DNA of 64,000 nt. Origin: Cyrtodaria siliqua. Taxonomy: Eukaryota > Mollusca > Bivalvia > Adapedonta > Hiatellidae. Position numbers and translations under genes: made by a program. Where the stretch lies: contig JAWPHD010011522.1 of NCBI GenBank assembly GCA_037043455.1, forward strand, positions 19,157 to 83,156, written 5' to 3'. Shown here piece after piece: positions 22,031 through 59,000 of the stretch (positions within the stretch are counted from its first letter, which is position 1; each line of letters starts with the position of its first letter). A model generated the notes under the pieces. The model saw only the letters and a program-made list of their open reading frames with translations, made no database searches and had not been told where the DNA came from.

Positions 22031-22139
22031 CCGTGAAATCAAGGAACTCATTTAATATCGTTTCAAGATGTTTATAATTTGCTAAAAGCTATGGCCAGTG
22101 TACAAATGCAACTATAAAAAAAGCCGGTAACTTGAAACC

Positions 22140-22390
22140 ATGCCATCCAAACCAGGCCTTTCAAACCAGGCCATCCAAATCAGGCCACCCTAACCAGGAC
22201 ATCCAAACCAGGCCATCCTAACCAGGACATCCAAACCAGGCCATCCAAACCAGGCCACCATAACCAGGCCATCTAAACCAGGCCATCCTAACCAGGACAT
22301 CCTAACCAGGCCATCCAAACCAGGCCATCCTAACCAGGTGATCCTAACCTGGCCATCCAAACCAGGCCATCCTAACCAGGACATCCAAAA
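22140..22390 (+). repeat. 14-bp minisatellite, about 17 copies
   Basis: Unit CCATCCAAACCAGG with A/T and C/A variants. The minus-strand open frame here (GLDGLVRMSWLGWP) is only the translation of the repeat. Confidence 0.95.
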
Positions 22391-35900: not shown

Positions 35901-38900
35901 AAGAACGAATATTTTCAGATTACCTCCCTTTATAATAAAAATATAGTGATTTCGCAATTTGAATAAAACATGTTTTAGCAGCAACAGACAAACTTTGGTT
36001 TTCGATGATTATTAATATTGATCAGAATGATGGAGTGATAAGTATAAAATGATGAAATTATATCTAGATTGGTGTACAAAGTGTAACAGAGTCAACCTTA
36101 TGCAAATCACAGCTTAACAGAGGGACGTTTCTATTTTTGCTGAGTATAGTTTGACAATAGGGTTAGATTGTGGTTTGGTGCACCCTAGAACCGGGTACAC
36201 CGTGGTAAATAAAAATACATTAGTTTTGAAAATCGGTTGAGAAATAATTATTTTAAAGGAACAATTTTAATGTTAACTCATTCTTGCTGGCACAGCAGAA
36301 AATTGAGAAATCTCAAATCTGTTCAGTTCGCCTTAATAGTTTTCTATACAACATATAGGATGTCTTAATTTATGTTTGTTCAAAAAATTAAACCATTTTT
36401 AGATAACAATTCTAAAACATATATATTTGTTCTAAGTTTTGATGCAGGTGAAAGTTTTTTCAAACAACTTTAAAAAGTACGATATTTTTATTTACCACTA
36501 AACATGTCTATTTCGTTGATATACAACTTATTTAGTTTAAATTTGAATCTTATCTGTAAAGTTCGAAAAATGCTTGGCTGAAACAAGCGCCCCTAACAAT
36601 ATGGCAAATGTGAGAGTTTTAACGCTTGGTTTACAACCAAATGCATGCTTGTGAAACATGGCTAGAATCCCGTTACGATCTGTCAAACAAGCTTATATTC
36701 CCCAGAGATTTAAGCCGATCGAAAGTCCAACATGTATTTGCCACTGTAAGAAAATCACATGTAGTACCAGTACCACAAACAATTCTAAAATACGATGGAG
36801 CATATGACCAAGATTTGTACGAAGTTGAGCCATGAACAGTAACGAGCTATCTACAGTTCTTTACCTACGAGTGACGAAGCAAAATTAAAAAATGTACACC
36901 CCTTTACTGAAAAAAATACTGCGTTTGTGAGACTCGAACTGACGATCTCCAGATTGGCAATCCACGTGCTTTATCATTGGATTATGTAATTATTTTCCAA
37001 CATTAGACATGCTATAAACTGAAACTATGCTTTGTATGTTTGTTGTATGCATTAAATATACGATAAATTAAAATTGATTATCAGTTAACATTGTCAATCC
37101 GGGGGTCTCGAGTTTAAATCCCATGTTGAGTATAAACTTTTCAATGTTTAGGGCAGTGTTGTTTTTGATTTTCCTACATTGAACAAGGGAATGAAAATGA
37201 TGTCTTACTAAACTGTTCTCCTCTGATATATACAGTACAGGTTAACAGCTTAATAGACTGACTATATCTCCAATGCCTAACGTGTAGCTATAGTAGCTTT
37301 AAAAAACACAAAACAAATTGTTAATTGACACTATTACAGATATTAATTAAATGATATCAAAATTGGTTATCCACTGTTTGATTAAACATTGTATCTTGTA
37401 TTATTATTCAAGTTATCAATGGACTACAAAACTATCTGACATAAACGGCCTGGATCTCACATTCGTCAATGAACAGTTGACAAGAAACGCAACTCTTGAA
37501 GACCTTCTGGCACATCGAACTGGATTATCGTCCGTTAATGACTACGGGTTCATTGGTGGATACCCAGCGGGAACGGATATAGCTTATCTGAGCAGGTACA
37601 CGATGGTTATGTCTGCTTTTTGCATATAACTAGACATGTCGTATGTCCTAGATACTTCAACCACACCGATCTTTACTACCAAAGGCGCCAGGCACAGTAA
37701 ACATTTCACTTCGCATGTTATGTTTAATTTATTTCATGTTTTAAGCATGTAATAAATTGTTTAATTTATTACATGCTTTAAGATTATTACTTGCTTTAAG
37801 CTAACCTATATTGCGTGACCTGAGTAGTGTTGATCATCTTTGGCGCTTGGTTATAAAACGTCTTGACACTTTGTGCAGAGTAACAACTGAAACCGGAAAC
37901 ATATGTCCGATTTTTTTGGGATTTTTTTAGTATATATATGTCCGATTTTTTTTGGATTTTTTTAGTATATACTCGGTAAAAGAAGTTTTGGACCAGGGTA
38001 TATAAAGTCATATAAAAATAAAACTAGTGAACAGAATTTAAGTGTCTTTTTTTTAGAAACCAAGGTCTACCCTATCCTGTTAATTTGGTACCAGAAACAC
38101 TAAATTCCAAACAAGATTTGATTTTAAAAAAATATCGCGAACACACAAAGGGTTTGTAAAAAATGTTGCAAAGTCCATAGAAAGTAACAGTTACGGACAC
38201 ATTCGAGTAACCAATAAAAAGATTATTATTTTTTTCGCAAACTTTCATTGTAAACGATAATTATTGTTGATTGTTGACCTATTGTGAATTATCAACTCAG
38301 ATAATAAGGGTTATGGTCGAATGTCAAGGTTCGGCGATCATTGTACGGGTTCGAACACTGCCTAGGTCCAAAACTCTTTTTTACAGAGTATAGTATTTTT
38401 GACCATCACATTTAGTTCGTCGATATAATATAATGATGAAGTTTCCCTCTTTTTTTTTCTTTCTGCTGTTCTGCATATCTTGATTAGAAGGTGAGTCCTT
38501 ATCAGCCAATCATGAACGATATGACAGAATCTCGGTAAAATGGGTTCCGCGTCAAACTGTTTTTAGAAGAAAGGTTCTAGATGTTTGTCTTGACAACCAG
38601 TAAGCGTCGCAGATGATCTAGACTATGACCTAAGCAGTTATTTCCTAGGTTTGTCTAATCTGTTTTTTGTCTTCGCCAACACCGAGGTGATTTAAATTTC
38701 GAGGATTTTAGTATCAAACTGTGTCGTAGAGAACGTGCGGACCCAAATTCCCTTCCTTTGGAAAAAAATCTGTTCTTAAAATAATTGATACCCGTATTAC
38801 CTTTTATGCATATAAGCCCTTTTACAATCCTCGGAGACCTAGTTTTTCGATTCGTAATTTGAAATCGGGAATTCAGGAATTGCTGATAAAGCAACTAATA

Positions 38901-40226
38901 ATGTTACCATTGTTTGACACCGTCATTAGGTCAATGTTATATTTCTGGAACTCTGGAGAACTTATTCGTATACTCCAGGTCAATCTAATGAGAATGATGT
39001 TGTTTCCACGCATATTACCCAGTGCACGGCTTTCAGGCTGAAGTAGACACAAGGCAAACGAAACTTGCATCCATGTACTGGATTCTTTAATTACACAAAA
39101 AAAACGTTATAAAGCCCATTGTATTTCCAATTTTAGCGGCAGTTTAGAAATGTGGATTTGCCAATACGTTTGCGAATCACTAATTTTTCTATTAGACAAT
39201 ATGTTCATCAGGTATGGAACTACGGTTTATAAACACAATGTTGATATCCCTATTGGTACTAACTGTACAGGTCTTATCGCAGATTTGTATTTGTATTGCT
39301 ATGAAAAAGATATGTTGATTCTTTCACCAGATATTCAGACAGATGACAGACAATGCTTCAATAACAAGCCCCTTGTCTGGATCATAAATGAAAACTAATA
39401 ATTGGACTAGAATGAAACTTGACACTTGACACAATCGTAGAGGACAGTAAAAAGAAGTGTAGGGATAAGAACGATAATTACAACTTTAGTTTCAGCAAAT
39501 ACAGAATTATCCCCCTTTGTACACTTATATTTATTTTTATATGCATGTTAATATATCAGACATCTCTCGTCTGGAATGTAATAACTTGCCATTCTCTTCT
39601 TTTAATTGGTAAGCATTAGTATGTTATTGCTTTTGAGCTTTAATAAAATCACTCATAACATATAATAACATACAGACATACATCCGTTTATTATATTTTT
39701 TTACATTTCCACTTTAACGTATACTTTGTGTACACTGCGAAAACGTCATTAGAAAGCATCTACGTTCGTCGGGGAGCAATCGTCGGTTCTATCAATGTGC
39801 TTGTTCTAAATTCTAGGAACAACCTGCTCACCATTGTTGAAATATAATTTTCGCATGTCTTTCTGTACTTTTAGTACTTTGCTTTTACTTAATTCCCAGG
39901 CGACTTAAATATTTACCAGAAAAGGGAACTTTTCGATCGTCGTTTGTATATAACAACATGATGTATATGGTGCTGGGTCACGTGATTGAGGTGCTCGGCA
40001 AAGACTCGTGGGAGAATCTGGTGACTTCACGACTTCTAGAACCGATCGGAATGGACCAGTCCATGGTGCTGAAGTCCATAGATGACATATTGAGGCCCAA
40101 TGGTGCCAAACCGTACATTGTGAAAGATGGAAGGCTTCAAGACGGCAATCATGCCATATATAAGTAAGTACACCCAAAAGTGGCTGTATCGGTTGGAAAC
40201 TAAAAAAAAAAAAAAAAAAAATAAAA

Positions 40227-40261: not shown

Positions 40262-43200
40262 AAAAAAAAAAAAAAAAATAATGTTTATGTTATTTGTTGA
40301 AAACAAATATATTTTAAGTTTTACTGAAAAAAATGTCCCAGAGTATCGTAGTTATAGATAAGGTTTAAAGCTCTCTGTGGTCAACATTTGATACCTAACT
40401 GATTTCATCAATTATTTTTTTGGCCAAATTCCGAGAATTACCATCAATCTGGACTGGTTGGAACCGCAAATGTATGCCGTTCTCGAAACCGAAAACCGAA
40501 AACAATTCGATCAAACCGTTTTTCTGTGACAAGTCAAAATGCTTCGAAAAACGCGATTTCCAATTAGGTATAAATCACTGTAGAAGAAAATAAAGCACAT
40601 ATTCACCGCTATTGGTGGCGATTCCCCGAATGTACCAGTGTCAACCAATTCAATCCGAGGGGATTTCAACACCGGAACAAGTAATAAACATAAATATGGC
40701 GATTACCTTTTTCAAATTTTTTGTATTTGACGAGAAATCGTCAGCTTAGAATATTCAAAACATCGTCTGCCTCATTTGTTTTGAATAGTCATGATCATCT
40801 GCGACGCTTGCTTTTTTAACCTTTGCCTTTGTCTTTAAAAAAGCAAACGTCGTATATGATCAAGATTCTAGATTCTATAATACACTGAGGTAGTGGTGGA
40901 GTCTATTGGCCAACTTATTAATTCTATATATTCATGCCCCGCGGTCTCGAAAAACCGGAGTGCATTTTGCACTGCCAGTCGGCCCGTCCGTCCGTCCGAG
41001 TGTTCGTCCTATGTTCGTGTCCGGTAAATAAATTCACTATCGTTTAATGATTTCTCTCAGACTGCTACCATGAAAAACTATCTAAGAGCGCAAGACCAAT
41101 AACTCTGTCTAGCATTTCTGCGGATTTATGCACCGTTTTATACCTAAACAACTTGTGCAACTACTCTGGTTTTTGGCCGGTGCACAATTGTTAATATCGT
41201 TAAATTATTTTCTTTCAAACGAGTTACAATGAATAACCATCTTATGTATCTTACCTTTTTTGGAGGAGATGTTTTAATGTTACGTAATCACATATGTTTT
41301 TAGGCTGACTCCATTGGAACCGGCTGGGAGCATTCTGTCTAACGCCGTTGACATGGCAACATGGATGAAATTTAACCTGAACAATGGCACTATTTCCAAC
41401 GGGAAACACCTCGTGGATTCAACAAGATTTGCAGATGCTTTCGAGGTAGTTGTTTTATAAAGCGACTGTACTTATAAAAGGGTGATATGTATGTTGTTGT
41501 TAACTAAAATACATATTTACAAAAATAAAATAAATAGTTCAATGTTTTTCTCGGAAGGGAAAAAACGTATTAAGTTATACGGCCTACTTATAACTTTAAG
41601 GGTGCTTGTTTATCCAGTTCGTATCATAAAAGCTTCAGACTGAGTGGTATATTACATAATATATTGCAATGATTCGATTATTTTTATTTTAAACTTATTT
41701 ACTTTACATTTATTGTAACGAAAGCTGTATGGACTTCTTTTAATCACTCTCGATGTTTTCCTGGGTAGCCTGAGAAACCGTGCTAAGCAAATACAGATAA
41801 AGTGTCTTTCTCAGAGACACAACACAGAATGGTCATGGCGGGGATCGAAGTCACGACCTTTTGATCATGAGTCCGACGTTCTACTTCTAGACCACAGCGG
41901 TCCACCTAAATTGTAATGAATTGAAACAGACATTAAATATATTTAAATTGTAACCGTAAATAAAATGTGTGCTATTATTTGAATTTCCGAATCCTTTGCA
42001 TGTAGAAAAAAACCTGTACTTTTCTTTGCATCGGTCGCACATTCCTACGTAATATTTTGTTAGAAAGGAAAATATGAAACCCGTCCGCTTGCTAGCTAGC
42101 GAGTCAAGAAATACTGTTGCGCACCTTTCATTTGGGGGAAACACAACAAAACAAACAAAAAAACACATTCTAAAAGTGTATTCTAATACATGGTCGTTTT
42201 CACATACATTTCACATGTTATACATTCAGACCCACAACGAGGTTCCCAGCTTCATGGTAAACAATCTACAACAGCCAAAATTCCCCGTTGATGACATAAC
42301 CCACGGGTTACGGCTTTGGCTGGTTTGACTCGACATACAGAGGTGAGTTATAGCATATATACGTCTTTGTCTGAGTTGACTCGACATACAGAGGTGAGTT
42401 ACATCATGTCTACGACTTTGGCTGATTTGACTCGACATACAGAGGTGAGTTATATCATATGTACGTCTTTGGCTGATTTGAATCGACATAAAGAGGTGAG
42501 TTATATCATATATACGTCTTTGGCTGATTTGACTCGACATACAGTGTTGAGTTATGTCATATATACGGCTTTGGCTGCTTGGAATCGACATACAGTGTTG
42601 AGTTATGTCATATATACGTCTTTGGCTGATTTGACTCGACATACAGTGGTGAGTTATGTCATATATATGGCTTTGGCTGATTTGATTCGACATACAGTGT
42701 TGAGTTATGTCATATATACGGCTTTGGCTGGTTTGCCTCGACATGCGGAGGTGGGTTTTATCATATATACTTCTTTGGCTGGTTTGATTCGACATACAGT
42801 GGTGAGTTATATCATATATACGGCTTTGGCTGGTTTGACTCGACATACAGAGGTGAGTTATATCATGTATATGGCGTTGGCCGGCTTGACCCGACAAACA
42901 GAGGTGATAAATATCATATATATGGCGTTGGTTTGTTTGACTCGACATACAGAGGTTAGTTATATCATATATACGGCTTTGGCTGGTTTGAGTCGACATG
43001 CAAGGATTAGTTATATCATATATACGAAATTGGCTGGTTTGACTAGACATACAGAGGTGATTTATATCATATATACGGCTTTTACTGGTTTGACTCGACA
43101 AAGGGTAAGTTATATCATATATATGGTTTGAGTCGACATACAGGGGTGAGTTATATCATATATACGGCTTTGGCTGGTTTGACTCGACATACAGGGTAAG

Positions 43201-46200
43201 TTATATCATATAAATGGTTTGAGTCGTCATACAGGTGTGAGTTATATCATATATACGGCTTTGGCTGGTTTGACTCGACATGCGGAGTCGAGTTATATCA
43301 TATATACTTCGTTGGCTGCTTTGACTCGACATACAGAGTTGAGTTTATATCATATATACGTCTTTGGCTGGTTTGACTCGACATACAGAGGTGAGTTATG
43401 CCATATAATCGGCTTTGGCTGGTTTGACTCGACATGCAGAGATGAGTTATATCATATATACGGCTTTGGTTGGTTTGACTTGACATACAGAGGTGAGTTT
43501 ATATCATGTATACGTCTTTGACTGGTTCGACTCATCATACAGAGGTGAGTTATATCATATATATACTGCTTTGGCTGGTTTGACTCGACATACAGAGGTG
43601 CGTTATATCATATATACGGCTTAGGTTGGTTTCAGTCGACATACAGAGGTGAGTATATAGCATATATACGGCTTTGGCTGGTTTAACTCAACATACAGAG
43701 GTGAGTTATATCATATATACAGCTTTGGCTGGTTTGACTCGACATACAGAGGTGCGTTATAATCATGTATACGGCTTTGACTGATTTGACTCGACATACA
43801 GGGGTTTGTTATATATCATATATACGTCTATGGCTGATTTGACTCAACATGCAGAGGTGAATTATGCCATTTATACGGCTTTGGCTGGTTTGACACAACA
43901 TACAGGGGTGAGTTATGTCAATATATATACGGATTTGACTGGTTTTGACGCGACATTGCAGAGGCCAGTTATATCATATATACAGCTTTGGCTGGTTTGT
44001 TTCGACATACAGAGTGAGTTATATCATATTTTACGTCTTTGGCTGGCTTGACTCGACAAACAGAGGAGATTTATATCATATTTATGACGTTGGTTGGTAT
44101 GACTCCACATACAGAGATTAGTTTTATCATATATACGGCTTTGACTGGTTTGACTCGACATGCAAGGATGAGTTATATCATATATACGGCTTTGGCTGGT
44201 TTGAGTCGACATGCAGAAGTGAATTATATCATATATACGGCTTTGGCTGGTTTGACGCGACATGCAGAGGTGAGTTATATCATATTTATGACGTTGGTTG
44301 GTTTCACTCCACATACAGAGATTAGTTTATAAACATATATACGGCTTTGACTGGTTTGACTCGACATGCAAGGATGAGTTATATCATATGTACGGCTTTG
44401 GCTGGTTTGACTCGACACGCAGAAGTGAATTATATACATATATACTGCTTTGGCTGGTTTGACGTGACATGCAGAGGTGAGTTTATATCATATATATGCT
44501 TTGGCTGGTTTGGCTCGACACGCAGTGGTGAATTATATCATATATATACGGCTTTGGCTGGTTTGACTCGAAAGACAAACAGAGGTAATTTATATCATAT
44601 ATACGGCGTTGGCTGGTTTGATTCGACATTGAGAGGTGAGTTATATATCATATATACGGCTTTGGCTGGTTTGACTCGACATGCAGGGGTGAGTTATATC
44701 ATATATGCCGCTTTGGTTGGTTTGACTCGATATGGAGAGGTGAGTTATATCATATATACGACTTTGGCTGGTTAGACTCGACATACAGAGGTGAATTATA
44801 TCAATATATACGGCTTTGGTTGGTTTGATTCGACATACAGAGGTGAGTTATATCATATATACGGCTTTGGCTCGTTTGACTCCACAAACAGAGGTTCGTT
44901 ATATCATATATACGACTTTGGCTGGTTTGACTCGACATACAGGTGTTAGTTATATCATATATGCGTCTTTGGCTGATTTGACTCAAAATGCAGAGGTGAG
45001 TTATATCATATATACGGCTTTGGCTGGTTTGACTCGACATACAGAGGTGAGTTATGCCATATATACGGCTTTGGCTGGTTTGACTCGACATACGTGGGTG
45101 AATTATGTCATATATGTATACGGCTTTTGGCTGGTTTGACTCAACATACAGAAATGAGTTATGTCATATATACGACTTTGGCTGGTTTGACTCGACAAGC
45201 AGAGGTGAGTTAAGGTCTGACTCGACAGACGGTGTTGAGTTATGTCGTATATACGGCTTTGGCTGGTTTGACTCGACATACAGAGGTGAGTTATATCATA
45301 TATACGTCTTTGGCTGGCTTGAATCGACAAACAGAGGTGATTTTATATCATATATATGACGTTGGTTGGTTTGACTCGACATACATAGGTCAGATATATC
45401 ATATATACGGCTTTGGCTGGTCTGACTCGACATTCAAGGATGAATTATATTATATATACGGCTTTTGCTGGTTTGACTCGACATGCAGTGGTGAGTTATA
45501 ACATATATACGGTTTTGCGCTGGTTTAATCGACATGCAGATGTGAGTTATATCATATATACGGCTTTGGCTGGTTTGACTCTCGACATGCAGAGGTGAGT
45601 TATGTTATATATACGGCTTTGGCTGGTTGGACTCGACATGCAGATGTGCGTTATATCAAATATACGGCTTTGGCTGGTTTGAAACGACATACAAGGGTGA
45701 GTTATATAATATATACGTCTTTGGCTGGTTTGACTCAACATGCAGAGGTGAGTTATATCATATATATACGTCTTTGGCTGGCTTGACTCGGCAAACAGAG
45801 GTGATTTATATCATATGTATGGCGTTGGTTGGTTTGACTCGACATACAGAGGTTAGTTATATCATATTAACGGCTTTGGCTGGTTTGACTCGACATGCAC
45901 GGATTAGTTATGTCATCTATACGGCTTTGGCTGGTTTGACTCGACATGTAAAGGTGAATTATATCATATATACGGCTTCGTCTGGTTTGACGCGACGTGC
46001 AGAGGTGAGTTATATCATATATACGGCTTTGGCTGGTTTGACTCGATATACAGGGGTTAGTAATATCATATATACGGCTTCGGCTGGTTTATCTCGACAT
46101 ACAGGGGTTAGTTATATCATGTATACGGCTTTTGCTGGTTTGACTCGATATACAGGGGTTAGTTATATCATATATACGGCTTTGGCTGGTTTGACTCCAC

Positions 46201-48500
46201 ATACAGGGGTTAGTTATATCAGATATACGGCTTTGGCAGGCTTGACCCGACAAACATAGGTGATGTATATCATATATATGGCGTTGGTTGGTTTGACTCA
46301 ACATACAGAGGTTAGTTATATCATATTTACTGCTTTGGGTGGTTTGACCCGACATGCAAGGATTAGTTATGTCATATATACGGCTTTGGCTTGTTTTACT
46401 CGACATGCAGAGGTGAATTACATCATATATACGGCTCTGGCTGGTTTGACGCGACATGCAGAGGTGAGTTATATCATATATACGACTTTGGCTGGTTTGA
46501 CTCGACAGAAAAACAGAGGTAATTTATATCATGTATACGGCTTTGGCTGGTTTGACTCGACATACAGGGGTTAGTTATATCATATATACGGCTTTGGCTT
46601 GTTTGACTCGACACGTAGAGGTGTGTTATATCATATATACGGCTTTGGATGGTTTGATTCGACACGCATAGGTGAGTTATATCATATATACGTCTTTAGC
46701 TGCTTGGTTTGACGTACACATGTGAGTTGTATCATATACTAGAGGACAAAAGAAACGCAACTCTGTGCTTATAATCACATATCTTTCAGAGTATTTAACA
46801 AAACAAACAAAACAATTCAGTTCAGTACACAGTATTAATTTTCAATTGAAAATGTGGTGAAAATATGGTGGCGATGCCTGATAAATTAACAATAGATGTT
46901 TTAAACAAACAAAACAACATAGATCCTGACCCTTAAACAGTTGCGTTTCTTTGTTCCTTAAGTATATTTAAAGCTTTGACTAGTTTAACTCGACAGACAG
47001 TTTCGAGTTAGATCACAGGCATGGCTTTGATTGGTTTGAGTCGACACACGCATATTTATACACATACTGGCCGAAACACTGTAAGGCGGGTGCGGGAATT
47101 TTGCTATTGAGTGCCATCCACTCGATCTCAATATGTTAAGACATTATAAGGTTGATTGAAAAAATATCCATCTTTGCGAAGACCGTCAAGCGAGTGATTC
47201 CTGGCATTCGTGGCCCTGTTTTTAGAGCATGGACGCTTTGTTCTTCACATTAAAGGGACACATGACAATTTTGATTTTTTTTAAAAACTCACGGCGTCCC
47301 GTTAGTTTTTCTCTTAACTTGCATTTGTTCAATCATTAATATTAACTGTTAGAATAGTTCAGAGCAAACTGTTTTTACATATTACTATTTTTTTGTAATA
47401 TTGCACCAATAATATATTGAAAATTTTCGTAAAATAACGTAAGAAAATTGAAATCTGATTTTTTTAAATTTAATTATATGCAAGCAGTTTTAAAGTCAAA
47501 ATGACGCAGAATAACTAAGTCGAGGAGCAAATTTTAATGTTTGCATAAAACTCACGATTGCCATGTGTCCCTTTAATTCCACCAAATTTCTATAGCAAGT
47601 AGAGCGATACACGCGCTATTGAGCCCCTTTGTTTTGCAATCATCTACACTAGTTATATACACCCGCCTAGATATTGAGCTTTGGATGACTTGTTGATGTT
47701 ACTTTTTCGATCGTTATTCTTAATATTTGGTGATTTGCTGATACTAACGATTATTGACCTTATATTGGGGCTTTTTTGTTGCAGGATTAAGCCGTAAATG
47801 GCACAGCGGCGGACTGTTTTCGTATGTATCGCTACTCTGGTTGTATCCCGATGAAAAGATCGGAGTTTTTGTCAATACCAACGGACCAGCAATCCCATCT
47901 GTTCCCGGATTGGGACTCCAGGCTATACTAACTTATGTTTCGGATATTTTACTCGGACAGGAACCTTGGTTAAATCTGACAACAGGGTGTACGTTTCCAA
48001 GTCCATGGCAGAAACAATTAACCTTTCCAATTCCTCCACAACCCACATTTACAAATGACAATTTAACAGATTTTGTCGGAATATATGGGAATCCACTTTT
48101 ACCAGACATAGAAATAACAGTTATAGAAAGTAAGGGGAATGAGAGTGAAAACAGCTTGTATCTAAACTGGAACAGAATTAAGGGCGAGCTACTTCCCACT
48201 GCAGAAGGCGACGTGTTCGGATTTTTGATGACGGAGCCATGGGAATATGCGATAGAGCGCGTATGGAACGAGAATTTTACTATCACTTACAAGGTGGCGT
48301 TTGAACGAATGGAAAACGGAGATGTCTTTGCCTTTGATATTTTTCTCAGCATGGTAAAAGGTTTGAGCTTCCGGAAAGATGTTAGATTCCTGAGTGATGA
48401 TGACGTCAGTGATGCAGCTTCTACATTCAAATATTGCATTTCATACATGTTGGTTTGCACTTTCATATTACTGACGGTAACAACACACTTGACCCTTTAA
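24401..48500 (+). CDS. Secreted beta-lactamase-like serine hydrolase (peptidase S12 fold), six exons
   Basis: Exons: 24401-24693, 37413-37595, 39900-40163, 41304-41445, 42230-42342 and 47785-48500. All introns are GT-AG and all phases agree. Ignoring one surplus base in exon 5, the product is 569 residues. It has a signal peptide (about 1-16), SLGK (Ser80-Lys83), YNN (Tyr176-Asn178) and HSG (His338-Gly340), the three active-site motifs of class C beta-lactamases, penicillin-binding proteins and LACTB-like proteins. A beta-rich C-terminal domain follows (about 400-540), then a hydrophobic tail (about 548-569) suited to a membrane or GPI anchor. Expected role: extracellular serine peptidase, esterase or amidase of unknown substrate. 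The surplus base creates a TGA at 42326-42328, which would cut the protein at 326 residues without HSG. The gene is intact elsewhere, so sequence error, allelic damage or recent pseudogenisation are all possible. Confidence 0.85.
24729..24968 (+). mobile_element. Non-autonomous hAT-like element in intron 1
   Basis: The left end CAGAGGCGGATTCAGG and the right end CCTGTATCCGCTCCTG are imperfect inverted repeats of 16 bp with the CAGRGGCGGAT start common in hAT-type ends. No clear 8-bp duplication is visible. Inside, a GGGGAGGGGGAGGGGTGGGG tract (about 24793-24812) with a GGT run should form a G-quadruplex, just downstream of the exon 1 donor. Confidence 0.55.
25038..25110 (+). mobile_element. 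5' end of a TTAAAGGGACACA MITE, truncated
   Basis: TTAAAGGGACACACGACAAT matches the terminus of the MITE at 47250-47576. No matching right end is visible before the next copy at 25403. Confidence 0.5.
25403..25765 (+). mobile_element. TTAAAGGGACACA MITE, copy in intron 1
   Basis: Starts TTAAAGGGACACAGGCAGTC and ends GTATGGTCTCTTTAA, a degenerate inverted terminus. The interior shares GCATTTGTTCAATCAT, CAAACTGTTTTTGCATATTA, TATTGCACCAATA and GTTTAAAGTCAAAAT with the better-preserved copy at 47250-47576. It is an older copy of the same family. Confidence 0.75.
25960..26345 (+). repeat. GCAGAAT-rich degenerate minisatellite
   Basis: Units of about 60-65 bp contain ATGGGCAGAACAGCAGAATG and GATGAATTTATTATTCTGCC. 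CAGCAGAAT and ATTCTGCC are mutually complementary, so each unit can fold into a hairpin. Related fragments continue to about 26580. Confidence 0.8.
26654..27760 (+). repeat. 23-bp minisatellite, about 48 copies
   Basis: Unit CTGAGCATCGTCACTTACTC followed by TCA or TCT. The first 600 bp are nearly homogeneous, alternating ACTTACTC and ACATACTC variants. Copies after about 27280 are degenerate, a one-sided decay gradient. Confidence 0.95.
27761..29915. other. Intron 1 sequence, unassigned
   Basis: AT-rich and non-coding. A CAAACTTAC-type short repeat (29610-29640) is minor. I see no recognisable element or exon. Confidence 0.4.
29920..30270 (+). repeat. (ATC)n trinucleotide microsatellite
   Basis: A pure (ATC)n run at about 29925-29975 continues as interrupted CATCATCACC and ATCATCTTCACC blocks. 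Within the latter a 60-bp block (CATCTTCACCATTATCATC) repeats three times. Poly-His, poly-Ser and poly-Asp frames here are translations of the microsatellite. Confidence 0.95.
30300..33160. other. Intron 1 sequence, unassigned
   Basis: AT-rich. The stretch 31960-32460 repeatedly contains TTTCCCA-type pyrimidine motifs and may be an old transposable element. Minus-strand frame 30698-30979 shows no recognisable family. Confidence 0.35.
33264..33328 (+). repeat. CpG-rich 33-bp duplication
   Basis: TTACGACGTGTGAATCTTAC then GACCTATACCGA is followed at once by TTACGACGTGCGAAACGTAC then GATCTACACCGA. A third relic, GTCGCACGTCGTAGAGAACG, lies near 33220. CpG density is far above the AT-rich surroundings. 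Confidence 0.6.
33530..33590 (+). promoter_or_regulatory. Candidate TATA-less promoter-like cluster
   Basis: Within about 50 bp are ACCGGAAGT (33536-33544, ETS consensus), CAAAATGGCGCC (33547-33558, YY1-like) and GCCATCTTGG (33572-33581, YY1-like on the other strand), all in a CpG-rich patch. This combination is usual at animal housekeeping promoters. Only a 21-codon frame (ATG at 33551) follows, so it may be an alternative promoter within intron 1, an element's promoter or chance. Confidence 0.35.
33640..34416. other. Intron 1 sequence, unassigned
   Basis: AT-rich. Contains a short tandem duplication of CTACGTCATGCAAATAATAC (near 34038-34100) and nothing else I can name. Confidence 0.4.
34417..34515. 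repeat. Dispersed repeat family A, copy 2
   Basis: TCATGAACAGACTCAATAAA, GCCGAGT, TGTGTTTGTTGCT and CAAGGGATCCCCTTT align with 10645-10730 in the same orientation. Only this part of the family is present. Confidence 0.65.
34516..35588. other. Intron 1 sequence, unassigned
   Basis: AT-rich and non-coding. No repeat edges recognised. Confidence 0.4.
35589..36148. mobile_element. Tc1/mariner-like non-autonomous element (560 bp)
   Basis: The left terminus TATACTGAGCAAAAATAGAA then GCGTCCC and the right terminus, read on the minus strand, TATACTCAGCAAAAATAGAA then ACGTCCC are inverted repeats of about 27 bp. TATA ends suggest TA target sites. The interior has no transposase. The minus-strand frame 35665-35880 has no recognisable DDE motif. 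Confidence 0.8.
36629..36838 (+). pseudogene. Coding-like fragment in intron 1, unrecognised
   Basis: A frame reading ACETWLESRYDLSNKLIFPR and VQHVFATVRKSHVVPVPQTI has balanced composition and few low-complexity runs, starts without clear initiation context and ends at TGA. It may be a fragment of another gene or element. It does not fit the phase or content of the hydrolase. Confidence 0.25.
36915..36990 (-). pseudogene. tRNA-like sequence, degenerate
   Basis: The minus strand shows a D-arm-like CCAATGATAAAGCACG, an anticodon-like loop TTGCCAA and a B-box-like CAGTTCGAGTCTC. Acceptor pairing is not evident, so it is a tRNA pseudogene or the head of a SINE, not a working tRNA. Confidence 0.45.
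37413..37595 (+). CDS. Hydrolase exon 2
   Basis: Acceptor TTATTATTCAAG|TTATCAATGG and donor CTGAGCAG|GTACAC. The exon enters and leaves in phase 2 and codes for residues 98-159. The stretch ending in LEDLLAHRTGL is the strongly conserved segment following the SxxK helix in LACTB-like and AmpC-like proteins. It confirms the join to exon 1, 12.7 kb away. Confidence 0.88.
37596..39160. other. Intron 2, non-coding part
   Basis: Includes a tandem duplication of about 36 bp (TGTCCGATTTTTTTGGG to AGTATATA, 37902-37974). No other exon-like stretch. Confidence 0.45.
39165..39400 (+). pseudogene. Penelope-like reverse transcriptase fragment
   Basis: An open stretch reads ESLIFLLDNMFIRYG, VYKHNVDIPIGTNC and LIADLYLYCYEKDML. 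The I-P-x-G-T-N-C block and the following ADLYLYCYE are the signature of RT motifs 3-4 in Penelope-like elements. It degenerates where the catalytic DD box should follow (after CFNN). It lies in intron 2 in sense orientation and is not part of the hydrolase. The assignment rests on motif memory. Confidence 0.6.
39401..39899. other. Intron 2, 3' part
   Basis: AT-rich. Ends with a pyrimidine-rich stretch and the exon 3 acceptor TTCCCAG (39893-39899). Confidence 0.5.
39900..40163 (+). CDS. Hydrolase exon 3: YxN motif
   Basis: Acceptor AATTCCCAG|GCGACTT, donor ATATAA|GTAAGT. Codes for residues 159-247. FRSSFVYNNMMYMVLGHVIE contains YNN (39949-39957), the second active-site motif; its Tyr acts in proton transfer. 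SWENLVTSRLLEPIGM is the conserved helix after it. Confidence 0.9.
40201..40282 (+). repeat. Poly(A) tract
   Basis: About 80 bases of A interrupted by a few T. It lies 38 bp into intron 3, just after the exon 3 donor. Length is probably unreliable in assembly. Confidence 0.9.
40283..41303. other. Intron 3, remainder
   Basis: No element recognised. It ends in TATGTTTTTAG, the exon 4 acceptor. Confidence 0.5.
41304..41445 (+). CDS. Hydrolase exon 4
   Basis: Codes for residues 247-294. LTPLEPAGSILSNAVDMATW matches the conserved PAG-x2-S-x3-DMA segment of the family, where the Ser/Asn region lines the active site. Donor TTCGAG|GTAGTT in phase 0. Confidence 0.88.
41446..41750. other. Intron 4, 5' part
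   Basis: AT-rich. No element recognised. Confidence 0.5.
41755..41906 (-). mobile_element. tRNA-derived SINE (V-SINE-like) in intron 4
   Basis: On the minus strand, GCTGTGGTCTAGAAGTAGAA (A-box region), an anticodon-like CTCATGA and GACTTCGATCCCCGCC (B box) form a tRNA-derived head. It is followed by GAAAGACACTTTATCTGTAT, a conserved SINE central domain type known from bivalves. A 3' tail is not clear. Confidence 0.7.
42230..42342 (+). CDS. Hydrolase exon 5, with a one-base frame error
   Basis: Acceptor TTATACATTCAG|ACCCAC, donor CATACAGAG|GTGAGT. Codes for residues 295-332. The frame entering from exon 4 reads VPSFMVNN, QQPKFPVDDITHG and then stops at TGA 42326-42328. The frame required to join exon 6 reads YGFGWFDSTYRG. 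The two differ by one base within CACGGGTTACGG (42302-42313). Without it, FPVDDITHGYGFGWF would be the expected family sequence. The last 34 nt are the founder of the 51-bp array. Confidence 0.75.
42308..46734 (+). repeat. 51-bp exon-end/5' splice site minisatellite, about 85 copies
   Basis: The unit is TACGGCTTTGGCTGGTTTGA, CTCGACATACAGAG and then GTGAGTTATATCATATA, that is 34 nt of exon 5 end plus 17 nt of intron 5. The first copy is the real exon end. A large share keep GTGAGT; others have GTTAGT, GTGAAT or GTGATT. Because 51 bp is 17 codons, long frames stay open on both strands (for example 42226-43101 minus and 42316-43131 plus). These are repeat translations, not genes. In the gene frame the consensus unit has no stop, but copy 1 has TAG at 42351-42353. 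Confidence 0.92.
46735..46966. mobile_element. MITE inserted in the 51-bp array
   Basis: Left end TATACTAGAGGACAAAAGAA then ACGCAACT; right end on the minus strand TATACTTAAGGAACAAAGAA then ACGCAACT. This gives 28-bp inverted repeats with TA borders, typical of Tc1/mariner-like MITEs. The terminal motif resembles the element at 35589. A decayed array unit continues on its far side (46967-47060), so it inserted after the array formed. Confidence 0.8.
46967..47249. other. Decayed array remnant and intron 5 sequence
   Basis: GACTAGTTTAACTCGACAGA and GGTTTGAGTCGACACACG are diverged 51-bp units (to about 47060). The rest is unassigned. Confidence 0.6.
47250..47576. mobile_element. TTAAAGGGACACA MITE, well-preserved copy in intron 5
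   Basis: Left terminus TTAAAGGGACACATGACAAT; right terminus, minus strand, TTAAAGGGACACATGGCAAT. A 327-bp AT-rich interior has no frame. The same family occurs at 25403-25765 and 25038. Confidence 0.88.
47785..48500 (+). CDS. Hydrolase exon 6: HxG motif, C-terminal domain and anchor
   Basis: Acceptor TTTTTTGTTGCAG|GATTAAGC. Codes for residues 332-569 and the stop. LSRKWHSGGLFSYVSLLW contains HSG (47802-47810), the third active-site motif, in the position of KTG in class C enzymes. YPDEKIGVFVNTNGP follows as the next strand. The C-terminal half (FVGIYGNP, LYLNWNRIKGELLPT, ITYKVAFERM) looks like the beta-barrel accessory domain found after S12 catalytic domains. The end (YMLVCTFILLTVTTHLTL) is hydrophobic, preceded by DDDVSDAAS, which would suit GPI attachment or a single membrane helix. 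Confidence 0.9.
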
Positions 48501-48669: not shown

Positions 48670-49476
48670 AATTAACCCTGCAGTATATCCTAGGATATCA
48701 AATATTACGGTGCAGAATGAATTAACCCTGCAGTATATCATAGGATATCAAATATTACGATGCAGAATGAATTAACCCTGCAGTATATCCTAGGATATCA
48801 AATATTACGGTGCAGAATGAATTAACCCTGCAGTATATCATTGGATATCAAATATTACGGTGCAGAATGAATTAACCCTGCAGTATATCCTAGGATATCA
48901 AATATTACGGTGCAGAATGAATTAACCCTGCAGTATATCATAGGATATCAAATATTACGTTGCAGAATGAATTAACCCTGCAGTATATCCTAGGATATCA
49001 AATATTACGATGCAGAAATAATTAACCCTGCAGTATATCATAGGATATCAAATATTACCTGCAGTATATCCTAGGATATCAAATTAACCCTGCAGTATAT
49101 CCTAGGATATCAAATATTACCTGCAGTATATCCTAGGATATCAAATTAACCCTGCAGTATATCCTAGGATATCAAATTAACCCTGCAGTATATCCTAGGA
49201 TATCAAATATTACGATGCAGAATGAATTAACCCTGCAGTATATCATAGGATATCAAATATTACCTTCAGTATATCCTAGGATATCAAATTAACCCCGTTA
49301 CGGTGCAGAATGTATTAACCCTGCAGTATATCATAGGATATCAAATATTACCTGCAGTATATCCTAGGATATCAAATTAACCCTGCAGTATATCCTAGGA
49401 TATCAAATATTACGGTGCAGAATGAATTAACCCTGCAGTATATCCTAGGATATCAAATATTACGTTGCAGAATGAA
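48670..49476 (+). repeat. 50-bp palindromic minisatellite, about 19 units
   Basis: Unit ATTAACCCTGCAGTATATCC, TAGGATATCAAATATTACGG, TGCAGAATGA. The core ATATCCTAGGATAT is a perfect palindrome. In the first eight units CCTAGG alternates with CATAGG or CATTGG, giving a 100-bp dimer. After about 49030, shortened units of about 30 bp (lacking the TGCAGAATG part) intermix with full ones. Confidence 0.93.
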
Positions 49477-49718
49477 TTTCCTTGTAAACAAGAAGTCGTT
49501 TTAAGGTTTATTCAATATGTTTTGTTCCTTTAAGATAGTTAATATCATTATTTGTCAATTTTAAGTCAGACTCCAAGAGCCCCCTTTAGAGTCCCTGCAA
49601 AATGACTAGTAGTAAATGTTTAGCATTAAGGTTCCAATAAAATAGACTGAACAATATTAAACCCGAACACGTGATCAATCAGTATAATATACTACACAGA
49701 CTACTAATTTGGCATATA
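49477..49718. other. Spacer
   Basis: AT-rich with no feature seen. Confidence 0.4.
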
Positions 49719-50006: not shown

Positions 50007-50066
50007 GCATATGATTCTGATATGATTCTCATTTGATACTTTTTATATGCTGCTTATATAAAAGGA
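50007..50066 (+). repeat. Left inverted flank of the 26-bp array
   Basis: ATATGATTCTGATATGAT and TATATGCTGCTTATATAAAA match the reverse complement of the right flank (61818-61863), with an extra 11-bp block on this side. It runs directly into the first array unit. Confidence 0.6.
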
Positions 50067-53000
50067 GAAGTACATGATCTTATATAAAAGGAGCAGTACA
50101 TGATCTTATATAAAAGGAGAAGTACATGATCTTATATAAAAGGAGCAGTACATGATCTTATATAAAAGGAGCAGTACATGATCTTATATAAAAGGAGAAG
50201 TACATTATCTTATATAAAAGGAGAAGTACATGATCTTATATAAAAGGAGCAGTACATGATCTTATATAAAAGGAGAAGTACATGATCTTATATAAAAGGA
50301 GAAGTACATGATCTTATATAAAAGGAGCAGTACATGATCTTATATAAAAGGAGAAGTACATGATCTTATATAAAAGGAGAAGTACGTGATCTTATATAAA
50401 AGGAGAAGTACATGATCTTATATAAAAGGAGAAGTACATGATCTTATATAAAAGGAGAAGTACATGATCTTATATAAAAGGAGCAGTACATGATCTTATA
50501 TAAAAGGAGCAGTACATGATCTGATATAAAAGGAGAAGTACATGATCTTATATAAAAGGAGAAGTACATGATCTTATATAAAAGGAACAGTACATGATCT
50601 TATATAAAAGGAACAGTACATGATCTTATATAAAAGGAGAAGTACATGATCTTATATAAAAGGAGAAGTACATGATCGTATATAAAAGGAACAGTACATG
50701 ATCTTATATAAAAGGAGAAGTACATGATCTTATATAAAAGGAACAGTACATGATCTTATATAAAAGGAGAAGTACATGATCTTATATAAAAGGAACAGTA
50801 CATGATCTTATATAAAAGGAGAATAACATGATATTATATAAAAGGAGAATTACATGATATTATATAAAAGGAGAAGTACATGATATTATATAAAAGGAAA
50901 AGTATATGATCTCATATAAAAGGAACAGTACATGATCTTATATAAAAGGAGAAGTACATAATCTTATATAAAAGGAGAAATATATGATCTTATATAAAAG
51001 GAACAGTACATGATCTTATATAAAAGGAGAAGTACATGATCTTATATAAAAGGAGAAGTACACGATCTTATATAAAAGGAGAAGTACATGATCTTATACA
51101 AAAGGAAAAGTACATGATCTTATATAAAAGGAGAAATATATGATCTCATATAAAAGGAGCAGTACATGATCTTATATAAAAGGAGAAGTACATGATCTTA
51201 TACAAAAGGAAAAGTACATGATCTTATATAAAAGGAGAAATATATGATCTCATATAAAAGGAGAAGTACATGATCTTATATAAAAGGAACAGTACATGAT
51301 CTTATACAAAAGGAACAGTACATGATCTTATATAAAAGGAACAGTACATGATCTTATATAAAAAGAACAGTACATGATCTTATATAAAAAGAACAGTACA
51401 TGATCTTATATAAAAGGAACAGTACATGATCTTATATAAAAGGAACAGTACATGATCTTATATAAAAGGAACAGTACATGATCTTATATAAAAGGAGAAG
51501 TACATGATCTTATATTAAAGAGAAGTACATGATCTCATATAAAAGGAGCAGTACATGATCTTATATAAAAGGAACAGTACATGATCTTATATAAAAGGAG
51601 CAGTACATGATCTTATATAAAAGGAGAAGTACATGATCTTATAAAAAAGGAACAGTACATGATCTTATATAAAAGGAACAGTACATGATCTTATATAAAA
51701 GGAGCAGTTCATGTCCTTATATAAAATGAGAAGTACATGTTCTTATATAAAAGGAACAGTACATGATCTTATATAAAAGGAGAAGTACATGATCTTATAT
51801 AAAAGGAGCAGTACATGATATTATATAAAAGGAGCAGTACATGATCTTATATAAAAGGAACAGTACATGATCTTATATAAAAGGAGCAGTACATGATCTT
51901 ATATAAAAGGAACAGTACATGATCTTATATAAAAGGAGCAGTACATGATATGATTTTATATAAAAGGAGAAGTACATGATCTGATATAAAAGGAGTAGTA
52001 CGTGATCTTATATAAAAGGAGCAGTACATGATATGATTTTATATAAAAGGAGCAGTACATGATCTTATATAAAAGGAGCAGTACATGATCTTATATTAAA
52101 AGAGCAGTACATGATCTTATATAAAAGGAGAAGTACATGATCTTATATAAAAGGAGCAGTACATGATATTATATAAAAGGAACAGTACATGATCTTATAT
52201 AAAAGGAACTTTACATGATCTTATATAAAAGGAACAGTACATGATCTTATACAAAAGGAACAGTACATGATCTTATATAAAAGGAACGGTACATGATCTT
52301 ATATAAAAAGAACAGTACATGATCTTATATAAAAAGAACAGTACATGATCTTATATAAAAGGAACAGTACATGATCTTATATAAAAGGAACAGTACATGA
52401 TCTTATATAAAAGGAACAGTACATGATCTTATATAAAAGGAGAAGTACATGATCTTATATTAAAGGAGAAGTACATGATCTCATATAAAAGGAGCAGTAC
52501 ATGATCTTATATAAAAGGAACAGTACATGATCTTATATAAAAGGAGCAGTACATGATCTTATAAAAAAGGAACAGTACATGATCTTATATAAAAGGAACA
52601 GTACATGATCTTATATAAAAGGAGCAGTTCATGTCCTTATATAAAATGAGAAGTACATGTTCTTATATAAAAGGAACAGTACATGATCTTATATAAAAGG
52701 AGAAGTACATGATCTTATATAAAAGGAGCAGTACATGATATTATATAAAAGGAGCAGTACATGATCTTATATAAAAGGAACAGTACATGATCTTATATAA
52801 AAGGAGCAGTACATGATCTTATATAAAAGGAACAGTACATGATCTTATATAAAAGGAGCAGTACATGATATGATTTTATATAAAAGGAGAAGTACATGAT
52901 CTTATATAAAAGGAGTAGTACGTGATCTTATATAAAAGGAGCAGTACATGATATGATTTTATATAAAAGGAGCAGTACATGATCTTATATAAAAGGAGCA

Positions 53001-56000
53001 GTACATGATCTTATATTAAAAGAGCAGTACATGATCTTATATAAAAGGAGAAGTACATGATCTTATATAAAAGGAGCAGTACATGATATTATATAAAAGG
53101 AACAGTACATGATCTTATATAAAAGGAACTTTACATGATCTTATATAAAAGGAACAGTACATGATCTTATAAAAAAAGAACATTACATGATCTTATATAA
53201 AGGAACATTACATGATCTTATATAAAAGGAGAAGTACATGATCTTATATAAAAGGAGCAGTACATGATATTATATAAAAGGAACAGTACATGATCTTATA
53301 TAAAGGAACATTACATGATCTTATATAAAAGGAGAAGTACATGATCTTATATAAAAGGAGATTTACATGATCTTATATAAAATGAGCAGTACATGATATT
53401 ATATAAAAGGAACAGTACATGATCTTATATAAAGGAACATTACATGATCTTATATAAAAGGAGCAGTACATGATCTTATATAAAAGGAGAAGTACATGAT
53501 CTTATATAAAAGGAACAGTACATGATCTTATATAAAAGGAGCAGTACATGATCTTATATAAAAGGAGAAGTACGTGATCTTATATAAAAGGAGCAGTACA
53601 TGATATGATTTTATATAAAAGGAGCAGTACATGATCTTATATAAAAGGAGCAGTACATGATCTTATATAAAAGGAACAGTACATGATCTTATACAAAAGG
53701 AACAGTACATGATCTTATATAAAAGGAACAGTACATGATCTTATATAAAAAGAACAGTACATGATCTTATATAAAAAGAACAGTACATGATCTTATATAA
53801 AAGGAACAGTACATGATATGATTTTATATAAAAGGAGAAGTACATGATCTGATATAAAAGGAGTAGTAAGTGATCTTATATAAAAGGAGCAGTACATGAT
53901 ATGATTTTATATAAAAGGAGCAGTACATGATCTTATATAAAAGGAGTAGTACATGATCTTATATTAAAAGAGCAGTACATGATCTTATATAAAAGGAGAA
54001 GTACATGATCTTATATAAAAGGAGCAGTACATGATATTATATAAAAGGAACAGTACATGATCTTATATAAAAGGAACTTTACATGATCTTATATAAAAGG
54101 AACAGTACATGATCTTATACAAAAGGAACAGTACATGATCTTATATAAAAGGAACAGTACATGATCTTATATAAAAAGAACAGTACATGATCTTATATAA
54201 AAAGAACAGTACATGATCTTATATAAAAGGAACAGTACATGATCTTATATAAAAGGAACAGTACATGATCTTATATAAAAGGAACAGTACATGATCTTAT
54301 ATAAAAGGAGAAGTACATGATCTTATATTAAAGGAGAAGTACATGATCTCATATAAAAGGAGCAGTACATGATCTTATATAAAAGGAACAGTACATGATC
54401 TTATATAAAAGGAGCAGTACATGATCTTATATAAAAGGAGAAGTACATGATCTTATAAAAAAGGAACAGTACATGATCTTATATAAAAGGAACAGTACAT
54501 GATCTTATATAAAAGGAGCAGTTCATGTCCTTATATAAAATGAGAAGTACATGTTCTTATATAAAAGGAACAGTACATGATCTTATATAAAAGGAGAAGT
54601 ACATGATCTTATATAAAAGGAGCAGTACATGATATTATATAAAAGGAGCAGTACATGATCTTATATAAAAGGAACAGTACATGATCTTATATAAAAGGAG
54701 CAGTACATGATCTTATATAAAAGGAACATTACCTGATCTTATATAAAAGGAGCAGTACATGATATGATTTTATATAAAAGGAGAAGTACATGATCTGATA
54801 TAAAAGGAGTAGTACGTGATCTTATATAAAAGGAGCAGTACATGATATGATTTTATATAAAAGGAGCAGTACATGATCTTATATAAAAGGAGCAGTACAT
54901 GATCTTATATTAAAAGAGCAGTACATGATCTTATATAAAAGGAGAAGTACATGATCTTATATAAAAGGAGCAGTACATGATATTATATAAAAGGAACAGT
55001 ACATGATCTTATATAAAAGGAACTTTACATGATCTTATATAAAAGGAACAGTACATGATCTTATAAAAAAAGAACATTACATGATCTTATATAAAGGAAC
55101 ATTACATGATCTTATATAAAAGGAGAAGTACATGATCTTATATAAAAGGAGCAGTACATGATATTATATAAAAGGAACAGTACATGATCTTATATAAAGG
55201 AACATAACATGATCTTATATAAAAGGAGAAGTACATGATCTTATATAAAAGGAGATTTACATGATCTTATATAAAATGAGCAGTACATGATATTATATAA
55301 AAGGAACAGTACATGATCTTATATAAAGGAACATTACATGATCTTATATAAAAGGAGCAGTACATGATCTTATATAAAAGGAGAAGTACATGATCTTATA
55401 TAAAAGGAACAGTACATGATCTTATATAAAAGGAGCAGTACATGATCTTATATAAAAGGAGAAGTACATGATCTTATACAAAAGGAAAAGTACATGATCT
55501 TATATAAAAGGAGAAATATATGATCTCATATAAAAGGAGCAGTACATGATCTTATATAAAAGGAGAAGTACATGATCTTATACAAAAGGAAAAGTACATG
55601 ATCTTATAAAAAAGGAGAAATATATGATCTCATATAAAAGGAGAAGTACATGATCTTATATAAAAGGAACAGTACATGATCTTATACAAAAGGAACAGTA
55701 CATGATCTTATATAAAAGGAACAGTACATGATCTTATATAAAAGGAACAGTACATGATCTTATATAAAAGGAGAAGTACATGATCTTATATTAAAGGAGA
55801 AGTACATGATCTCATATAAAAGGAGCAGTACATGATCTTATATAAAAGGAACAGTACATGATCTTATATAAAAGGAGCAGTACATGATCTTATATAAAAG
55901 GAGAAGTACATGATCTTATAAAAAAGGAACAGTACATGATCTTATATAAAAGGAACAGTACATGATCTTATATAAAAGGAGCAGTTCATGTCCTTATATA

Positions 56001-59000
56001 AAATGAGAAGTACATGTTCTTATATAAAAGGAACAGTACATGATCTTATATAAAAGGAGAAGTACATGATCTTATATAAAAGGAGCAGTACATGATATCA
56101 TATAAAAGGAGCAGTACATGATCTTATATAAAAGGAACAGTACATGATCTTATATAAAAGGAGCATTACATGATCTTATATAAAAGGAACAGTACATGAT
56201 CTTATATAAAAGGAGCAGTACATGATATGATTTTATATAAAAGGAGAAGTACATGATCTGATATAAAAGGAGTAGTACGTGATCTTATATAAAAGGAGCA
56301 GTACATGATATGATTTTATATAAAAGGAGCAGTACATGATCTTATATAAAAGGAGCAGTACATGATCTTATATTAAAAGAGCAGTACATGATCTTATATA
56401 AAAGGAGAAGTACATGATCTTATATAAAAGGAGCAGTACATGATATTATATAAAAGGAACAGTACATGATCTTATATAAAAGGAACTTTACATGATCTTA
56501 TATAAAAGGAACAGTACATGATCTTATAAAAAAAGAACATTACATGATCTTATATAAAGGAACATTACATGATCTTATATAAAAGGAGAAGTACATGATC
56601 TTATATAAAAGGAGCAGTACATGATATTATATAAAAGGAACAGTACATGATCTTATATAAAGGAACATTACATAATCTTATATAAAAGGAGAAGAACATG
56701 ATCTTATATAAAAGGAGATTTACATGATCTTATATAAAATGAGCAGTACATGATATTATATAAAAGGAACAGTACATGATCTTATATAAAGGAACATTAC
56801 ATGATCTTATATAAAAGGAGCAGTACATGATCTTATATAAAAGGAGAAGTACATGATCTTATATAAAATGAACAGTACATGATCTTATATAAAAGGAGCA
56901 GTACATGATCTTATATAAAAGGAGAAGTACATGATCTTATATAAAAGGAACAGTACATGATCTTATATAAAAGGAGCAGTACATGATCTTATATAAAAGG
57001 AGAAGTGCATGATCTTATATAAAAGGAGAAGTACATGATCTTATATAAAAGGAGAAGTACATGATCTTATATAAAAGGAACAGTACACGATCTTATATAA
57101 AAGGAGAAGTACATGATATGATTTTATATAAAAGGAGCAGTACATGATCTTATATAAAAGGAGAAGTACATGATCTTATATAAAAGGAGCAGTACATGAT
57201 CTTATATAAAAGGAACAGTACACGATCTTATATAAAAGGAGAACTACATGATATGATGTTATATAAAAGGAGCAGTACATGATCTTATATAAAAGGAGAT
57301 GTACATGATCTTATATAAAAGGAGAAGTACATGATCTTATATAAAAAGAGCAGTACATGATCTTATATAAAAGGAGCAGTACATGATCTTATAAAAAAGG
57401 AACAGTACATGATCTTATATAAAAGAAGAAGTACATGATATTATATAAAAGGAGCAGTACATGATCTTATATAAAATGAGCAGTACATGATCTTATATAA
57501 AAGAAGAAATACATGATCTTATATAAAAGGAACAGTACATGATCTTATATAAAAGGAACAGTACATGATCTTATAAAAAAAGAACTTTACATGATCTTAT
57601 ATAAAAGGAACAGTACATGATCTTATATAAAAGGAGAAGTACATGATCTTATATAAAAGGAGCAGTACATGATCTTATATAAAAGGAGAAGTACATGATC
57701 TTATATAAAAGGAGCAGTACATGATTTTATATAAAAGGAGAAGTACATGATCTTATATAAAAGGAACAGTACATGATCTTATATAAAAGGAGCAGTACAT
57801 GATCTTATATAAAAGGAGAAGTACATGATCTTATATAAAAGGAGAAGTACATGATCTTATATAAAAGGAGAAGTACATGATCTTATATAAAAGGAACAGT
57901 ACACGATCTTATATAAAAGGAGAAGTACATGATATGATTTTATATAAAAGGAGCAGTACATGATCTTATATAAAAGGAGAAGTACATGATCTTATATAAA
58001 AGGAGCAGTACATGATCTTATATAAAAGGAACAGTACACGATCTTATATAAAAGGAGAACTACATGATATGATGTTATATAAAAGGATCAGTACATGATC
58101 TTATATAAAAGGAGATGTACATGATCTTATATAAAAGGAGAAGTACATGATCTTATATAAAAGGAACAGTACATGATCTTATATAAAAGGAGCAGTACAT
58201 GATCTTATATAAAAGGAACAGTACATGATCTTATATAAAATGAGCAGTACATGATATGATTTTATATAAAAGGAGAAGTACATGATCTGATATAAAAGGA
58301 GTAGTACGTGATCTTATATAAAAGGAGCAGTACATGATATGATTTTATATAAAAGGAGCAGTACATGATCTTATATAAAAGGAGCAGTACATGATCTTAT
58401 ATTAAAAGAGCAGTACATGATCTTATATAAAAGGAGAAGTACATGATCTTATATAAAAGGAGCAGTACATGATATTATATAAAAGGAACAGTACATGATC
58501 TTATATAAAAGGAACTTTACATGATCTTATATAAAAGGAACAGTACATGATCTTATACAAAAGGAACAGTACATGATCTTATATAAAAGGAACAGTACAT
58601 GATCTTATATAAAAGGAACAGTACATGATCTTATATAAAAGGAACAGTACATGATCTTATATAAAAGAAGAAGTACATGATCTCATATAAAAGGAGCAGT
58701 ACATGATCTTATATAAAAGGAACAGTACATGATCTTATATAAAAGGAGCAGTACATGATCTTATATAAAAGGAGAAGTACATGATCTTATAAAAAAGGAA
58801 CAGTACATGATCTTATATAAAAGGAACAGTACATGATCTTATATAAAAGGAGCAGTTCATGTCCTTATATAAAATGAGAAGTACATGTTCTTATATAAAA
58901 GGAACAGTACATGATCTTATATAAAAGGAGAAGTACATGATCTTATATAAAAGGAGCAGTACATGATATTATATAAAAGGAGCAGTACATGATCTTATAT

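Follow-up and report, generated by a model that had tools for sequence, protein, structure and literature searches.

A minisatellite derived from an exon end with its splice donor in a beta-lactamase-like gene of Cyrtodaria siliqua

A PF00144-like gene and the array behind its exon 5

The window, i.e., the whole 64,000-nt stretch that was analyzed, covers positions 19157-83156 of contig C11522 of Cyrtodaria siliqua and reaches the contig end. It contains a PF00144-like gene, of which five exons were placed on the forward strand (numbering follows an earlier sequence-only reading of the same DNA); no exons were found upstream of these. Exon 2 (37413..37595) is supported by an open frame, splice junctions, and conservation in three other copies of the gene, exon 3 (39900..40163) by its junctions and the PF00144 match of the joined exons, and exon 4 (41304..41445) by splice junctions. 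These are followed by exon 5 (42230..42342) and by exon 6 (47785..48500), which includes the stop codon and is the final exon by the present count. The junctions of all five exons (2-6) are GT-AG. Intron 5 spans 42343-47784 (5442 nt), and its genuine 5′ splice site, GAG/GTGAGT (42343..42348, forward strand), agrees in phase with exon 6.

With exon 5 entered as it is read in the intact copies, not in the window's own frame, the joined exons matched the Pfam Beta-lactamase profile PF00144 over positions 92-312 of 329 (E = 4.6e-25, 88.9 bits, cut-off 27). Profile positions below 92 fall outside the exons found, and a motif scan of the forward frames across 8000-37500 of the window gave no match to the N-terminal catalytic SxxK segment. 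The joined-exon protein also aligns with PDB 2qmi (E = 7.6e-9), and this alignment crosses the exon 5/exon 6 junction. The position of the exon 5 end is thus supported by splice phase and by protein alignment, as well as by two distant paralogs described below, in agreement with the sequence-only reading.

Exon 5 is 113 nt long in the window and one base shorter, at 112 nt, in each of the three others, owing to an extra C: the window has ACCCACGGG where ACCACGGG or ACCACAGG is found elsewhere, and the surrounding sequence reads ...ATAACCCACGGGTTACGG... In the window's own frame, a stop falls inside the last 34 nt of the exon. In the three other copies (on contigs C11542, C249, and C2472), the peptide DD(I/N)TTGYGFGW(F/L)DSTYRG is read into exon 6 without a stop, the frames are open through exons 2-6, and all junctions are kept. 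Hence, the peptide YGFGWFDSTYR proposed for the exon end holds in frame in those three copies and lies out of frame in the window. The extra C may be genuinely allelic or may have arisen in assembly.

Beginning inside exon 5, a 51-bp minisatellite of 87 units occupies 42309..46734 on the forward strand, as delimited by Tandem Repeats Finder (TRF) and by wrap-around alignment, both of which place its start at 42309, one base later than previously given. TRF reports a period of 51 with the consensus TACGGCTTTGGCTGGTTTGACTCGACATACAGAGGTGAGTTATATCATATA. By wrap-around alignment, some units are partly deleted, and the mean identity to the consensus is 0.90. Each unit consists of 34 nt of exon 5 end (TACGG...CAGAG) and 17 nt of intron 5 start (GTGAGTTATATCATATA). 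The exonic part of unit 1 is the end of exon 5 itself (42309-42342), its intronic part reads GTGAGTTATAGCATATA, and a majority consensus built from the 86 later units is identical to the exon end at 34/34 positions. The claim that the unit equals the exon 5 end plus its donor, with the genuine exon end as first copy, is thereby borne out; on all four contigs where the array was found, it lies in intron 5 of this gene. The array has the makeup of a donor-bearing minisatellite, with tandem units of minisatellite size that start at a genuine exon end and carry donors. It does not end at 46734, as had been supposed. At that position, it is interrupted by a 234-bp element (46734..46967) with 29-nt terminal inverted repeats that are 86% complementary, behind which lie two decayed 51-bp units (~46964..47066, forward strand) with an alignment score of 90, whereas the largest score in 200 shuffles was 30.

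The donor is retained to various degrees along the array. The GT at the donor position is kept in 74 of the 87 window units and GTGAGT in 36 of 87 by alignment (a raw string count over the array gives 35), and the full GAG/GTGAGT is aligned in 22 units. Across the 64 kb of the window, 23 exact copies of the 9-mer GAGGTGAGT were counted, all of them on the forward strand and within 42340-46469, against 0.21 expected from shuffles; exact sites include those of the nearest three later units, at 42391, 42442, and 42493. On a generic donor matrix that was not fitted to this organism, unit 1 scores 11.45 bits and the gene's other three donors score 4.2, 7.6, and 4.9; the score of unit 1 is equaled or exceeded by 21 of the 86 later units. 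Strong decoys thus number about 35, in place of the earlier figure of about 85.

Other copies of the gene and the age of the exon end

The assembled genome (2.88 Gb, 26,948 contigs) was searched at the DNA level with the first three units of the array. At least 102 matches were obtained, on C11522 (the window), C11542, C249, and C2472, all within intron 5 of this gene. A dispersed satellite at many unrelated loci was not found among these matches, whose counts are lower bounds, and the unit stands as a repeat of this gene. A protein search with exon 6 returned the same four places at 94-100% identity, together with 17 more distant matches on eight contigs. In the four close copies, the array lies in the same intron, and the sequences flanking it on either side align collinearly to the window. 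The 1.26-kb stretch that precedes the array is 97.7% identical to the window in C11542, 89.1% in C249, and 85.4% in C2472. C11542 is probably the other haplotype of the window locus, and C249 and C2472 are probably older duplicates. Four places with the array do not prove four loci, since two of them may be haplotypes of one locus.

Array length differs widely among the copies, with 87 units in the window, about 120 in C11542 (150 segments minus 30 inside an insert), 10 in C249, and 20 in C2472. Intron 5 measures 5442 nt in the window, 8710 nt in C11542, 1686 nt in C249, and 7315 nt in C2472. The first and last units share recognizable variants across all four arrays; the array therefore predates the gene duplications. 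Within C11542, 15 segments are identical at 49 or more of 51 positions to the segment 46 places on, and 15 to the segment 51 places on, as if blocks of units had been duplicated. The C2472 array has a majority variant of its own that involves two bases. The insert in C11542 is about 1.55 kb long, lies within the array on the reverse strand (17082-18628 of the first 30 kb, L009-L011), and is missing from the window array.

Of the eight contigs that carry distant paralogs, two (L034 and L035) were read over 3000 bases each. In both, the corresponding exon stops at the same codon (...YRG) and is followed by a phase-1 intron without the 51-bp array; these introns are 523 and 423 nt long, as read from the printed sequence. 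Because two distant paralogs share the exon end without the array, the exon end is the older feature, and the array was derived from it. The matching intron of L035 (the C17082 paralog) contains other tandem repeats at 2644-2800 on the reverse strand, namely a 27-bp repeat and CCA and ACT triplets.

The window as a whole is very rich in tandem repeats. Just past exon 6 lies a 50-bp array (CTGCAGTATATCCTAGGATATCAAATATTACGGTGCAGAATG..., 48670-49478), which the other copies have too. Directly behind the gene, at 50053-61817, about 448 copies of a 26-bp repeat extend over 11.8 kb, and parts of this repeat also match C11542, C249, and C2472. Further arrays at 1456-7268, 22135-22389, and 26647-27736 have units of 177-180 bp, 14 bp, and 23 bp.

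Constraint on the gene and on the decoy donors

Pairwise comparison of the copies on C11542, C249, and C2472 over 472 codons gave dN/dS values of 0.29, 0.44, and 0.41. The open frames of these copies, together with ratios of 0.29-0.44, indicate that the gene has been under constraint. For the window, exons 2-4 and 6 gave a dN/dS of 0.24 against C249 and 0.40 against C2472. The exception among the pairs is the window with C11542, for which the same exons show 1.2 synonymous versus 11.8 nonsynonymous changes. This nonsynonymous excess may reflect sequence errors or relaxed constraint. Taken with the frameshift in exon 5, these counts make constraint on the window copy doubtful.

Units of the window and C11542 were paired by an order-keeping alignment with a score of 287.5, against at most 112.5 in 30 trials with shuffled order. 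Among 73 unit pairs, 20 of 649 donor cells are changed versus 88 of 3038 at the remaining sites (P = 0.80); this set drew on 127 C11542 segments (60% identity cut), seven of them from the inserted element. Restricting the count to the 67 pairs in consecutive runs leaves 16 changes in 596 donor cells and 74 in 2786 others (P = 1.0). The window gives 5/80 donor and 28/366 other changes against C249 (nine pairs), and 9/99 and 31/457 against C2472 (11 pairs). The change rate of paired units, about 2.9%, is near the 2.3% of the flank. Furthermore, the donor 9-mer ranks only 47th in conservation among the 51 cyclic 9-mers of the unit in the window and 46th in C11542, and GTGAGT is present in 44% of paired units, compared with a mean of 56% for 35 control 6-mers, six of which are lower. 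There is no sign that GTGAGT is kept in the decoys, and at most a slight shortage of it. The decoy donors thus show no constraint. The array as a whole, through its length or the number of its donors, may nevertheless have an effect even though single decoys are unconstrained.

When read in phase with the intact copies, all four copies have a stop codon that ends 11 nt past the genuine exon end (TAG in three, TAA in C249), and the base that makes it (G or A) is present in 4/4 first units but in only 9 of 233 later units. Because of this stop, the use of any decoy would truncate the protein. Splicing from decoy 1, 2, or 3 would leave the stop 40, 91, or 142 nt ahead of the exon 5/exon 6 junction. 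Nonsense-mediated mRNA decay follows a 50-55 nt rule, by which decoys from the second onward would commit the mRNA to decay. The stop shared by the four first units could be a kept safeguard. Common descent suffices to explain it, and it is best taken as a hint, not proof.

The unit is 51 nt, or 17 codons, long, and its consensus has no stop. As the period is a multiple of three, long open frames occur on both strands of the array. A role of the array as a coding extension of exon 5 was considered and rejected, given the stop 11 nt past the donor in 4/4 copies and the frame-breaking net indels in 25 of the 87 window units. Recursive splicing, or exons made of the units, was likewise considered weak because the unit lacks a good acceptor; the 20 nt ahead of its CAG are 50% pyrimidine, versus 60-80% at the four genuine acceptors.

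A probable neutral origin, its rivals, and known parallels

The array is most likely a neutral minisatellite that was born from the exon 5/intron 5 junction and lies within the intron without a selected function, with splicing most probably proceeding from unit 1. A tandem duplication across the junction would have created the 51-bp unit with its exon end and 5′ splice site. The array may then have grown and shrunk through unequal exchange or slippage in the four gene copies, while its units presumably drifted neutrally within intron 5. Use of unit 1 is likely because its donor keeps the phase between exons 5 and 6 without adding any sequence, and products spliced from a decoy would be truncated or degraded by virtue of the stop behind the genuine exon end. 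Among donors of equal strength, the one nearer the acceptor is often preferred. A puzzle therefore remains as to how unit 1 wins, given exact sites in each of the three units that follow it. Three functions had been offered for the array on sequence alone, i.e., U1 titration, donor competition, and neutrality; the last of these fits best, as the donor positions of the decoys are unconserved.

Decoy donors might be used all the same, with the array serving as a splicing rheostat: decoy transcripts would gain a stop and be truncated or degraded, and the number and strength of the decoys would set the output of the gene in an allele-dependent manner. The 22 complete sites, the 21 of 86 later units that equal or exceed unit 1 on the generic matrix, the three nearest later units among the 23 exact sites, the stop found in 4/4 copies, and the span of array lengths from 10 to about 120 units are all consistent with such a role, and in human G1P3/IFI6 downstream minisatellite units are used as donors (PMC4526556). 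We nevertheless regard it as rather unlikely, because the decoy donors change at the same rate as the rest of the unit and are less conserved than most of it, and because the C249 copy, with nine later units and GTGAGT in 5/10 units, has a gene that is equally open. A splicing switch dependent on allele length, in which dozens of strong decoys compete with the genuine donor, the kept stop leads to truncated or degraded mRNA, and hydrolase output is tuned by an array length that differs among haplotypes and paralogs, seems improbable too.

A decaying gene, with the array inside a pseudogene, is similarly unlikely. The one-base frameshift in window exon 5, the motif scan of the forward frames across 8000-37500 that found no N-terminal catalytic exon, and the nonsynonymous excess between the window and C11542 would fit decay. 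Three of the four copies, however, are open over exons 2-6 with intact junctions, dN/dS is 0.24-0.44 in the other five pairs, and the window frameshift may be an assembly error.

In another reading, the array would bind U1 snRNP along the intron and thereby aid the definition of exon 5 or suppress premature polyadenylation. GTGAGT is kept in 36/87 window units and 55/120 C11542 units, as this would predict, but the donor positions are not conserved, and AATAAA/ATTAAA is absent from the 4393-nt array part of the intron, leaving little to suppress; such a function is very unlikely. Finally, the perfect match between the exonic part and the array consensus would be expected if a dispersed or satellite repeat had come first and inserted at or supplied the exon end, but this order of events is rejected as highly improbable, since the unit is found on four contigs only (counts being lower bounds), always within the PF00144-like gene, the same exon end exists in two distant paralogs without the 51-bp array, and the junction sits within a protein domain alignable to PDB 2qmi.

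A minisatellite at an exon-intron junction has partial parallels elsewhere. A minisatellite in human G1P3/IFI6 (6-16), reportedly described by Turri, Cuin and Porter in 1995, is said to supply several splice donors. The unit of the human minisatellite is 12 nt long. The C. siliqua array resembles it in that both are minisatellites located where an exon ends and contain splice donors in their units. It differs in the gene concerned, in its 51-bp unit of 34 exonic and 17 intronic nt, in having many more units, and in occurring in four copies of the gene, where it has from 10 to about 120 units and there is a stop past the genuine donor. In the human gene, splicing is stated in a later paper to use two of the downstream repeat units as donors (PMC4526556), whereas decoy use in the C. 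siliqua array is conjectural.

De Grassi and Ciccarelli (2009) reported tandem repeats of variable length where exons meet introns in human genes of recent duplication, and indicate that such repeats can create new introns and alternative splicing (PMC2812944). Our array is like those cases in being a variable minisatellite at an exon-intron boundary of recent paralogs. Those cases were selected by transcripts that keep or splice out the repeats, whereas the repeat here is read as intronic from genomic sequence.

Zhuo et al. reportedly described intron gain by tandem duplication in 2007. The same process is treated by Lehmann et al. (2010; PMC2891723). The likeness is that the duplicated stretch holds splice motifs; the difference is that in C. 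siliqua the duplication enlarged an intron already present and multiplied the donor alone, the unit being without a good acceptor. A looser parallel is the intronic minisatellite of earthworm metallothionein genes (PMC12783039). In a literature search, which covered few subscription papers, neither this gene nor an exon-end/donor array of similar size was seen described.

How the splicing machinery chooses among strong, identical 5′ splice sites is an old question, usually approached with two or three engineered copies. Here, four natural versions of one exon are followed by 9, 19, 86, and about 119 further copies of its end and donor, with strength varying from unit to unit. The origin of the minisatellite can be traced base by base to a coding exon, and the array amounts to a natural experiment on how the spliceosome chooses among near-identical donors that differ in distance, number, and strength.
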